Below are positions 60,929-64,000 of a stretch of DNA of 64,000 nt, piece by piece. Origin of the DNA: Nocardioides sp. T2.26MG-1 (GTDB lineage Bacteria > Actinomycetota > Actinomycetes > Propionibacteriales > Nocardioidaceae); NCBI RefSeq assembly GCF_950101795.1, contig NZ_CATNLZ010000035.1:186001-250000 (forward strand), written 5' to 3'. Each line of letters opens with the position of its first letter. Positions within the stretch are counted from its first letter, which is position 1. Below the pieces are notes generated by a model. That model did no database searches, was not told where the DNA came from, and saw only the letters and a list, made by a program, of their open reading frames with translations. The position numbers were made by a program, and so were the translations under genes.

Positions 60929-61501
60929 GTGGCCGTCAAGATCCGTTTGAAGCGCCTGGGCAAGGTCCGGGTGCCGCAGTACCGCATCGTCGTCGTCGAC
61001 TCGCGCAAGAAGCGCGACGGACGGGTGATCGAGGAGATCGGCAAGTACCACCCGAAGGAGAACCCGTCGTACATCGACGTCGTCTCCGATCGGGCGCAGT
61101 ACTGGCTCGGTGTCGGCGCGCAGCCGACCGAGGCCGTCGCCAAGATCCTCAAGATCACCGGCGACCTCCAGAAGTTCAAGGGCACGTCGGGCCAGGAGGG
61201 CACCCTCAAGGTCGCCGAGCCCAAGCGCGACAAGCTCGAGGTCTTCAACGAGGCGCTGAAGGAGGCCGCGAGCGAGCCCAAGGGCGACGCGGTGACCAAG
61301 AAGGCGGCCTCGTCGAAGAAGAAGGCCGAGGCCAAGCCCGCGGAGGCCGAGACCGAGACTGCTGCCGAGGCTCCCGCCGAGGCGCCGGCCGAGGCCGAGG
61401 CGCCCACCGAGGCCCCGGCTCCGGTCCCCGCCGACGAGACCCCCGAGGTCGCGGCCGAGGCGGCCGAGGCTGCGGAGGGCACTGAGAAGGCGGAGTCCTG
61501 A
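60929..61501 (+). CDS. rpsP: 30S ribosomal protein S16 with long acidic C-terminal tail
   Basis: A 190-residue S16 from GTG 60929 with GAGGAG upstream. Residues 1-85 are the conserved protein: [41 protein letters not shown] and [15 protein letters not shown]. From about 120 a Lys/Ala stretch ([19 protein letters not shown]) turns into an Ala/Glu/Pro tail of roughly 60 residues. Most bacterial S16 proteins are 80-100 residues; actinobacterial ones are longer, and this is at the long end. It starts the rpsP-KH-rimM-trmD group. Confidence 0.96.
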
Positions 61502-61506
61502 GCGGC

Positions 61507-61749
61507 ATGCTCGCCGAGGCGCTCGAGCACCTGGTGCGCGGTGTCGTCGAACACCCCGACGACGTCAGTGTCCGCGACAAGCAGCTGCGCCGCGGCTCGA
61601 TCCTCGAGGTCCGGGTGCACCCCGACGACCTCGGCAAGGTGATCGGTCGCAGCGGGCGCACGGCCACCGCGTTCCGCACCGTGATCTCCGCGCTGGCGGG
61701 TCGCGGCGGCGCGCGGATCGACTTCGTCGACGTCGACCGGCGCCCCTAG
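61507..61749 (+). CDS. khpA: KH-domain RNA-binding protein KhpA
   Basis: An 80-residue single KH domain. RRGSILEVRVHPDDLGKVIGRSGRTATAFRTVI holds the GxxG loop (GRSG). ALEHLVRGVVEHPDDV opens it. KhpA with KhpB binds many RNAs and affects cell division and elongation in Gram-positives. It lies 5 nt after rpsP, the standard rpsP-khpA-rimM context. Confidence 0.95.
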   Translation: MLAEALEHLVRGVVEHPDDVSVRDKQLRRGSILEVRVHPDDLGKVIGRSGRTATAFRTVISALAGRGGARIDFVDVDRRP

Positions 61750-61870: not shown

Positions 61871-62539
61871 ATGACGCTCACCCTCGCCGACCTGCACCCG
61901 GTGCTCGGGCTCCGCATCGCCGCGGGACCCCTCGAGCTCCGCGGGATCACCGACGACGACCTGCTCGGCCTGTGCGCCCTCGCGCGCGACGGCATCCACC
62001 CGCCGGACCAGATGCCGTTCTACGTGCCGTGGACCGACGCCGAGCCCGGCGCCCTGGTCCGCGGCACCGCGGCGTACCACTGGAGCAACCGGGCCGAGTA
62101 CTCGTCCTCCGCGTGGGCCCTGGAGCTCGGGGTCTGGTACGACGGCGTGCTGGTCGGCAGCCAGGGACTCCGCACCCGACGCTTCCTCACGACGCGCACC
62201 GGGGAGACCGGGTCCTGGCTGGGACGCGCACACCAGGGCCGGGGGATCGGCACCCGGATGCGCCAGGCGATCTGCGCCTTCGCGTTCGACCACCTCGACG
62301 CTGCCGAGGTGACCTCGGGTGCGTTCGTTGACAACCCGGCCTCGCTGGCGGTCTCGCGCAAGGTCGGCTATCGGGACAACGGCCGGCAACGGCTCGAGCG
62401 CCGGCCGGGCGAGCTCGCCGTCAACCAGCAGCTGGTGCTGACCCCGGGCGCCCTGGTCCGCGGTGACCCGTTGGAGGTCGAGGGGCTGCCCGCGTTCCGA
62501 CGCCTCGTCGGGCTCGACGGTGCCGACCCCCTACCCTGA
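61871..62539 (+). CDS. GNAT-family N-acetyltransferase
   Basis: A 222-residue RimJ/RimL-like acetyltransferase from ATG 61871 with GGGGG upstream. LELRGITDDDLLGLCALARDGIHPP opens the fold. WALELGVWYDGVLVGSQGLRTRRF, the acetyl-CoA-binding LGRAHQGRGIGTRMRQAICAFAF, and DNPASLAVSRKVGYRDNG define the GNAT core. Members acetylate ribosomal protein N-termini, amino acids or antibiotics. It is placed between khpA and rimM, usually adjacent genes, so it looks like an insertion into the operon. Its stop lies 4 nt before rimM. Confidence 0.9.
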   Translation: MTLTLADLHPVLGLRIAAGPLELRGITDDDLLGLCALARDGIHPPDQMPFYVPWTDAEPGALVRGTAAYHWSNRAEYSSSAWALELGVWYDGVLVGSQGLRTRRFLTTRTGETGSWLGRAHQGRGIGTRMRQAICAFAFDHLDAAEVTSGAFVDNPASLAVSRKVGYRDNGRQRLERRPGELAVNQQLVLTPGALVRGDPLEVEGLPAFRRLVGLDGADPLP

Positions 62540-62543
62540 CCGC

Positions 62544-63092
62544 GTGGAGAGCATCGAGGTCCTGGTGGGCCGGATCGGCAAGCCGCACGGCCTGCGCGGC
62601 GAGGTGACCCTCGACGTGCGCACCGACGAGCCCGACCGCCGGTTCGCGCCCGGCACCGTCCTGCGGGCCGAGCCGCCCCGTGGGTCCGCGTTCGCGCAGC
62701 GCGAGCTGACCGTCGCCACGATGCGCTGGCACCAGTCGACGCTGCTCGTGCACTTCGAGGGGATCCCCGACCGCAGTGCCGCCGAGGCCGCACGCGGGAT
62801 CCTGCTGCACGCCACGATCCCCGCGGACGCCTCGCCCGACGACCCCGACGAGTTCTACGACCACCAGCTGATCGGGCTGGCGGCGTACGACGTCTCGGGC
62901 GCCGCGCTCGGCGAGGTCACGGGCCTGGTGCACGGTGGTGCCCAGGACCTGCTGACGATCCGCACCCCCGACGGCCGGGACGCGCTGGTGCCGTTCGTGA
63001 AGGCGCTCGTGCCCGAGGTCGACCTCGCCGCCCACCGCCTGGTGGTCGCGGACCGGCCCGGCCTCGTCACGCCGCTGCCCGAGGACGACTGA
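62544..63092 (+). CDS. rimM: Ribosome maturation factor RimM
   Basis: A 182-residue 16S processing protein from GTG 62544, a start that gives the family opening [21 protein letters not shown]. The RimM N domain ends near [19 protein letters not shown], and the PRC-barrel follows ([36 protein letters not shown], then [13 protein letters not shown]). It binds S19 during 30S head assembly. It precedes trmD by 4 nt. Confidence 0.96.
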
Positions 63093-63096
63093 CGAC

Positions 63097-64000
63097 GTGC
63101 GCATCGACGTCCTGACGATCTTCCCGGAGTACCTCGCCCCCCTGGGGCTCTCGCTGGCCGGCAAGGCACGCGAGAAGGGCCTCATCGACGTGCAGGTGCA
63201 CGACCTGCGCCAGTGGACCCACGACCGGCACCGCACGGTCGACGACACCCCGTACGGCGGCGGCGCGGGCATGGTGATGAAGCCGGAGCCGTGGGGCGAG
63301 GCGTTCGACGACCTGCTCGGCGCGGGGCCCGCGGAGGGCGTGACGGTCGTGGTCCCCACCCCGTCGGGGCAGCCGTTCACCCAGGCGGTCGCACGCGAGC
63401 TCGCGACCCGCGAGCGGCTGGTGTTCGCGTGCGGGCGCTACGAGGGCATCGACCAGCGGGTGCTCGACGAGGTCGCGGAGCGGGCCGAGCTGCGCGAGAT
63501 CTCGCTCGGCGACTACGTGCTCAACGGGGGAGAGGTGGCCGCGCTCGCGGTCACCGAGGCCGTGGTCCGGCTGGTGCCCGGCTTCATGGGCAACGCCGAG
63601 TCGCTGCTCGAGGAGTCCCACGCTCTGTCCTATTCGGGGGCGAGCCTCCTGGAGTACCCCGTCTACACCAAGCCTCCGTCCTGGCGGGGCCGCGACGTGC
63701 CCCCCGTGCTGCTGTCGGGCGACCACGCCGCGATCGCCGCGTGGCGCCGCGAGCAGGCCGAACGGCGCACAGGGCGGCGGCGCCCCGACCTGCTGCACCC
63801 CTCGACGACGCTCGAGGGCGTCGAGCTGCGCGCGGCCGTGCCGGCCGACGCCGGAGAGCTGTACGTCCTCCAGCTGGCCTGCTGGGTGCAGGAGATGCAC
63901 GACAACCCCGGGGTGCGCATCCCGGCGCTCCACGAGTCGCTCGACGACGCCCGGGCGTGGCTGGCGCGCGACACCGTGGTGGTCGCCCGCGCGGCCGGGC
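63097..64000 (+). CDS. trmD: tRNA (guanosine(37)-N1)-methyltransferase fused to a GNAT-like domain, 3' truncated
   Basis: The frame is open from GTG 63097 to the window end (301 codons). Residues 1-240 are Trm[49 protein letters not shown], the SAM-knot [51 protein letters not shown] and [21 protein letters not shown] normal TrmD stops soon after this. Here the same frame continues with a segment ([22 protein letters not shown], then [25 protein letters not shown]) that matches the first part of a GNAT acetyltransferase. The rest, including the acetyl-CoA loop, is beyond the window. Confidence 0.93.

Follow-up and report, generated by a model that had tools for sequence, protein, structure and literature searches.

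A widespread in-frame fusion of the tRNA methyltransferase TrmD to a GNAT acetyltransferase domain in Actinomycetes

The trmD gene of Nocardioides sp. T2.26MG-1 encodes a single protein of 390 amino acids, in which a complete TrmD domain is followed by a complete GNAT domain; this fusion is real, widespread and kept by selection. The gene lies at the end of the window, the whole stretch of 64,000 nucleotides that was analysed (G000:C35:186001-250000, in a genome of 37 contigs and 5.1 Mb). Its frame starts with a GTG at 63097 on the plus strand and is free of stops as far as base 64000, the window end. The contig continues in L002, which is identical to the window in every letter over 63097-64000 and carries the remainder: the frame ends at a TGA at L002:7268-7270 (window coordinate 64269), 269 bases beyond the window, which gives 390 codons in one continuous frame. 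A preliminary description of the window had noted that there is no stop after the TrmD end; this holds in L002, where a stop or frameshift directly beyond the window was looked for and is absent. The features of the gene and its operon are collected in Table 1.

Table 1. Features of the trmD-GNAT gene and of the genes upstream of it (window coordinates).
Feature	Position	Strand	Evidence
TrmD (tRNA m1G37 methyltransferase) domain, residues 1-234 of 390	63097..63798	+	NF000648, TIGR00088, PF01746, phmmer to 6nvr
Junction, residues ~235-239, low-confidence linker	63799..63813	+	full-chain AlphaFold model
Start of GNAT domain, residues ~240-301 in the window	63814..64000, continues to 64269 (L002:7270)	+	Pfam, models
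rimM, immediately 5' of trmD	62544..63092	+	PF01782 73.0 bits (cut-off 23.5); PF24986 67.7 (27)
Separate GNAT gene, best model Acetyltransf_3	61871..62539	+	PF13302 60.8 bits (cut-off 25.4)
KH-domain RNA-binding protein gene	61507..61749	+	PF13083 KH_KhpA-B 68.7 bits (cut-off 32.1)
rpsP (bS16)	60929..61501	+	PF00886 79.4 bits (cut-off 27), residues 9-67

TrmD methylates tRNA beside the anticodon; it is generally regarded as essential and serves as a drug target. The N-terminal part of the fused protein resembles the known enzyme (COG0336, with solved structures from M. abscessus and M. tuberculosis) over residues 2-234 and passes both NCBIfam cut-offs: residues 1-234 score 301 bits with NF000648 (cut-off 220), and the TrmD part reaches 246.2 bits with TIGR00088 (195) and 216.7 bits with PF01746 (27.3). 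By phmmer, residues 2-234 match the solved TrmD 6nvr with 321.3 bits. There is no second TrmD in the genome, which yields one match in all at E ≤ 0.001. From family membership, the N-terminal SPOUT domain is predicted to make m1G37 in tRNA. Gene order and Pfam names place the gene in the rpsP-rimM-trmD-rplS operon, which reads rpsP, KH gene, separate GNAT gene, rimM, trmD-GNAT, rplS, signal peptidase gene and RNase HII. The separate GNAT gene upstream of rimM, also reported in the preliminary description, is real and scores best with a different GNAT model than the GNAT linked to trmD. A relative of it was found by tblastn at 16 of 80 named loci, some flanks being perhaps too short to reach it. 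The bS16 protein has a long Ala/Glu-rich C-terminus past its Pfam domain. Searching L002:3500-8000 against Rfam yielded a single match, under its gathering score.

Residues ~240-387 constitute a complete GNAT domain. The part of the protein encoded in the window, searched by itself, matched TrmD alone and no GNAT family at E ≤ 1; the GNAT assignment of the preliminary description was therefore a guess based on about 60 residues. The completed tail bears it out. The 390-residue protein passes the cut-offs of four GNAT models, PF00583 (40.3 bits, cut-off 20.7), PF13508 (37.2, 27), PF13673 (28.1, 23.6) and PF08445 (22.9, 22.1), and matches no Pfam models besides tRNA_m1G_MT and GNAT at E ≤ 1. In the AlphaFold model of the whole chain, built from 18 fused sequences (pLDDT 77.9, pTM 0.46), the GNAT part is well formed, residues 232-238 form a linker of low confidence (pLDDT < 50) and, at this pTM, the domain arrangement is not fixed. 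Modelled alone from 20 sequences, the GNAT part reaches a pLDDT of 93.7 and a pTM of 0.87, with seven strands and the helices in order. This model was compared with solved GNATs using Foldseek and VIA-align. Among the 50 matches listed, Z is about 18-20, differences below 1 being ties, and the best-resembling proteins include PA4794, ArsN, PaiA, Ta0374, Ard1 and RimI; the match to 3f0a has a Z of 20.4 over 148 residues at 2.2 Å. As the matched GNATs have many functions, the fold does not name a substrate.

The acetyl-CoA loop that the preliminary description had proposed to look for in the bases beyond the window is there, as PDLAGRGLGR at residues 325-334. At the first position of the Q/RxxGxG/A motif the window genome has Ala, and the consensus of the 18 fused proteins has Gln. 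Among 151 distinct fused proteins, D251, R302, R320, D326 and G333 are invariant, G331 is present in 150 and Y366 in 149; S359, N362 and Y366 are each kept in 96-99%. We take Tyr366 to be the general acid, a role known from other GNATs. It is replaced by Ala in L067 and L068, two loci of family f31 (families and genera are designated here by f and g numbers), and the loop glycines are still there in both. The tails of L105 and L106 are decayed further, in frame; the counts on selection, conservation and tail charge exclude these two. The substitution of Tyr366 and the decayed tails argue that acetylating activity is not universal. Judged on residue conservation, the GNAT domain looks catalytically competent, and the weight of evidence predicts a working acetyltransferase.

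Fusions were counted from match tables. In the genus sample, matches run across both domains in 52 of 59 genomes; four (G029, G037, G044 and G054) have a TrmD without the tail, one (G031) is cut by a contig end and two incomplete genomes give no match. TrmD therefore does not need the tail. The fusions sought in Propionibacteriales are common, with 81 of the 147 genomes of the order fused and G108 additionally bearing a decayed tail. Within this sample the fusion was found in 32 of 33 genomes of the window genus (g1), 3/3 of g3 and 1/1 of g5, and in none of g2 (0/13) or g4 (0/2); by family, it was found in 38/38 of f3, in 7/49 of f2 (four of six in g6, both of g17 and the one of g19) and in 0/8 of f4. 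At the level of the class, at least 20 of 246 genomes are fused among the matches listed, each from this order or from f31. The latter is a family of another order, with 48 genera sampled, in which 82 of 99 genomes are fused, with matches extending to residue 353 or further (G424 and G434 among them, in two pieces), 15 have TrmD only and two are partial (G431 and G471). Our guess is that f3 is perhaps Kribbella and f31 perhaps Dermatophilaceae in the GTDB sense.

Scanning named genomes with an alignment of the GNAT domain gave 370 loci. Of the best 80, 78 belong to Nocardioidaceae and two are unplaced, and all 80 have TrmD in a single frame of at least 380 residues; these best 80 are uninformative on the frequency of the fusion. 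Since few best candidates were scored per genome (at most 13 in the order, 7 in the class and 12 in another genome search), the absence of stand-alone copies is weak evidence. No stand-alone gene of the GNAT subfamily was found 3' of trmD in the 13 unfused among 15 trmD loci (L092-L106), a check that got as far as rplS in ten of the 13 (not in L092, L096 and L100). The match to residues 1-332 in G200, with a TGA inside, proved to be an ordinary TrmD, 263 residues long. An ammonium transporter gene (PF00909) lies 3' of trmD in three unfused members of the window family (L092:1768-2982, L095:3914-5164 and L097:4193-5416), and other membrane protein genes are found there in L103 (Na_Ala_symp) and L104 (UPF0014).

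Selection on the tail was analysed by the Nei-Gojobori method on 237 pairs from the 151 distinct fused proteins, with TrmD parts 90-99.5% identical. The median dN/dS is 0.178 for the GNAT part and 0.119 for the TrmD part, and the largest value for any single GNAT pair is 0.86. The dN of the GNAT part is about 1.9 times that of the TrmD part, yet it is clearly constrained. These ratios indicate that the tail is under purifying selection. A frameshift or assembly artefact was considered and ruled out because the identical join recurs in very many genomes. Separate translation of the GNAT from a start of its own is unlikely. In-frame start codons are present in the junction region, but none has a well-spaced ribosome site as judged by eye: an AGGAG directly abuts the ATG at L002:6896, and a protein started there would lack the first strand and some of the first helix.

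In a tree of the TrmD domain, the rows of f1, f3 and f31 mostly group by family, few branches being starred. Unfused Nocardioides fall inside f1, and one of them, L094, stands among fused rows, which suggests loss of the tail. The rows of f2 are found in two places; the fused f2 loci L230-L232 group with f31 (87-89, not starred), so that the fused gene was possibly passed between families or orders. In the GNAT tree, from which L068 was left out as decayed, a branch with support of 92/84.6 (not starred) has on one side 37 TrmD-linked copies and eight others. Seven of these eight are linked to an FMN reductase (L090, L091, L207, L266, L269, L272 and L273, all from Actinomycetes; PF03358 in 7/7); the eighth, L089, has no further Pfam domain and neither carrier. 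All eight nest with the TrmD-linked copies, and the GNAT domain thus works away from TrmD. It is because of this nesting that TrmD-linked GNATs as one clade were rejected (AU p 0.0245 with 55 rows and 0.006 with 64 rows). The history of the fusion is therefore not simple, and at least one move of the domain from carrier to carrier is probable. When f3 is taken out, a clade of the remaining TrmD-linked rows is not rejected (AU p 0.2). The f3 GNATs are separate from the remaining copies with weak support (83/61) and may represent a second fusion event.

The FMN-reductase fusions (e.g. L091:5679-6749, L207:4317-5390, L090:5555-6565 and L273:1957-3162) share the GNAT subfamily with the Nocardioides protein and differ in the carrier, an NADPH-dependent FMN reductase (PF03358) instead of TrmD. 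A MarR-family gene adjoins three of the seven, L090, L091 and L207, these being the three examined, and the two domains possibly form a reduce-then-acetylate module. More distant relatives of the GNAT are joined to an ABM monooxygenase (L209:4863-5597) or to a transglutaminase-like domain (L222:4326-5381), or stand alone, e.g. in f20 g36 genomes. The neighbourhoods of the non-TrmD family members (22 loci) hold no partner common to all; six f20 g36 loci have a common neighbourhood, and a few broad families recur in twos.

Combinations of a GNAT domain with a tRNA-acting domain in one chain are known from TmcA and Elp3, TmcA joining an ATPase/helicase domain to its GNAT. The fused protein differs from the TmcA type in lacking the ATPase/helicase domain, as its Pfam matches at E ≤ 1 are limited to the two families named above. 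TrmD fusions as such are already known. A 2007 paper noted TrmD with a second SPOUT domain (PMC1829167). According to PMC11187310, TrmD-Tm1570 from Calditerrivibrio nitroreducens (PDB 8b1n) is likewise a natural C-terminal fusion of TrmD to a second enzyme domain of obscure function, in which the TrmD half is active on tRNA. Its partner is a second SPOUT methyltransferase (PF09936), a family without a match in the 390-residue protein at E ≤ 1, whereas the partner in Nocardioides is a GNAT. Words starting with 'acetyltransf' are absent from the main texts of both papers. In the open-access literature searched, outside which most subscription journals lie, no title or start of an abstract was on the subject of TrmD-GNAT; the architecture may well be listed in domain databases.

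Our tentative best bet is that the GNAT acetylates an amine of some small molecule or peptide that has nothing to do with m1G37, with TrmD as its carrier. One gene would give a two-headed enzyme, with the SPOUT TrmD in front and the GNAT at the C-terminus; the GNAT would take the acetyl group from acetyl-CoA, held by the motif A loop, and transfer it to the amine with Tyr366 as general acid. TrmD would provide a steadily made dimeric carrier, and expression of the GNAT would be kept in step with ribosome synthesis. We prefer independent acetylation of an amine because the same GNAT subfamily is found on unrelated carriers, one of them a reductase that is MarR-adjacent in three loci. It counts against a mere carrier role that in two large groups most of the members sampled have the domain on TrmD, since a hitch-hiker need not keep one partner. 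The losses of Tyr366, the decayed tails, the rejected clade and the basic tail described below, commoner in TrmD-linked copies, also speak against it.

Acetylation linked to translation is a possible alternative, though we favour it less. The GNAT would act on a target delivered by TrmD, such as tRNA, an aminoacyl or peptidyl group on tRNA, a ribosomal protein or TrmD itself; methylation and acetylation would then be coupled within a single visit to the tRNA. Such a linked modification was the interpretation of the preliminary description, of which the acetyltransferase domain joined to TrmD has proved real while the linked modification stays a candidate reading, with evidence that points both ways. 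The setting of the gene in an operon with those of bS16, RimM and bL19 is consistent with it, as is the statement in PMC1829167 that extra domains of SPOUT enzymes mostly bind or process nucleic acids. RimI, the N-terminal alanine acetyltransferase of bS18, shares the GNAT fold. Structures of RimI match at Z 18-19, and N-terminal acetyltransferases of the RimI and Ard1 types stand near the top of the fold comparison (Z 19-20), together with many tied proteins. Against the RimI model TIGR01575 (cut-off 86.4), however, the full protein scores 18.0 bits and the GNAT domain 20.1-20.3, and the genome has a separate RimI of its own with 94.4 bits. The occurrence of the same subfamily on FMN reductases and of the wider family as stand-alone genes in other genomes, and the four genomes of the genus whose TrmD has no tail, also argue against a link to translation.

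The basic C-terminus bears on the same question. Over the last 12 residues, the net charge averages +3.5 in the 151 fused proteins vs +0.4 in 18 other family members, and a charge of at least +3 is found in 26/37 TrmD-linked vs 2/27 other copies. As this comparison amounts to one or two independent contrasts on the tree, the tail gives a hint that points to RNA, and the f2 fusions mostly lack it (1/6 at +3 or more). Part of the tail in Nocardioides is moreover encoded by an overlapping, conserved DNA element, which reads GATTTC and, about 16 bases further, TGTGGCAGACT. It lies at L002:7269-7301, just beyond the window, at or after the trmD-GNAT stop and 5' of rplS. A pattern search recovered variants of its second half at 95 of the 179 trmD genes whose flank was long enough (85 fused, 10 unfused), and 66 of these 95 also had a recognisable first half. 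The spacing between the element and the stop codon is variable; where the element overlaps the gene end in Nocardioides it encodes RIS(G)R C-termini (29/153 proteins). The element looks like a promoter of rplS. A narrower version of the link to translation, that the basic tail and the grip of TrmD on the anticodon stem would guide the GNAT head to an amine on a translation protein or on the bound tRNA, either at a base or at the aminoacyl group, appears doubtful to us. If true, reading-frame maintenance by m1G37 would be coupled to acetyl-CoA via a modification not yet recorded.

Less probable is a regulatory domain, i.e. a GNAT that binds acetyl-CoA without a substrate of its own, steadies or regulates the TrmD dimer and ties m1G37 to the metabolic state. 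The loop glycines, kept in 150-151 of 151 proteins and also in the two without Tyr366, fit such a role. So does the position of the tail: seven unfused TrmDs of other families (L070, L101, L102, L241, L242, L244 and L245) have a C-terminal extension of about 25-40 residues at the GNAT position, and unfused f1 TrmDs and L243 have little extension. Unfused chains thus end, or extend by tens of residues, where the fusion has a complete GNAT domain. A pure binder would not need the conserved S359, N362 and Y366, though, and the same genus contains TrmDs that cleanly lack the tail. That the tail is a neutral remnant of read-through into an adjoining gene, a reading suggested by tail-less genomes and decayed tails, is highly improbable, being contradicted by the low dN/dS, the catalytic residues kept across 151 proteins and the presence of the fusion in two orders.

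In two groups of Actinomycetes, TrmD bears an extra enzyme domain, maintained by selection, in most of the members sampled. The fusion offers a direct way into an orphan GNAT subfamily, the substrate of which can be sought among tRNA, ribosomal proteins and amines, and one genus provides related strains for comparison, some with the tail and some lacking it. Should the substrate prove to be tRNA-linked, the modification would be a new one.
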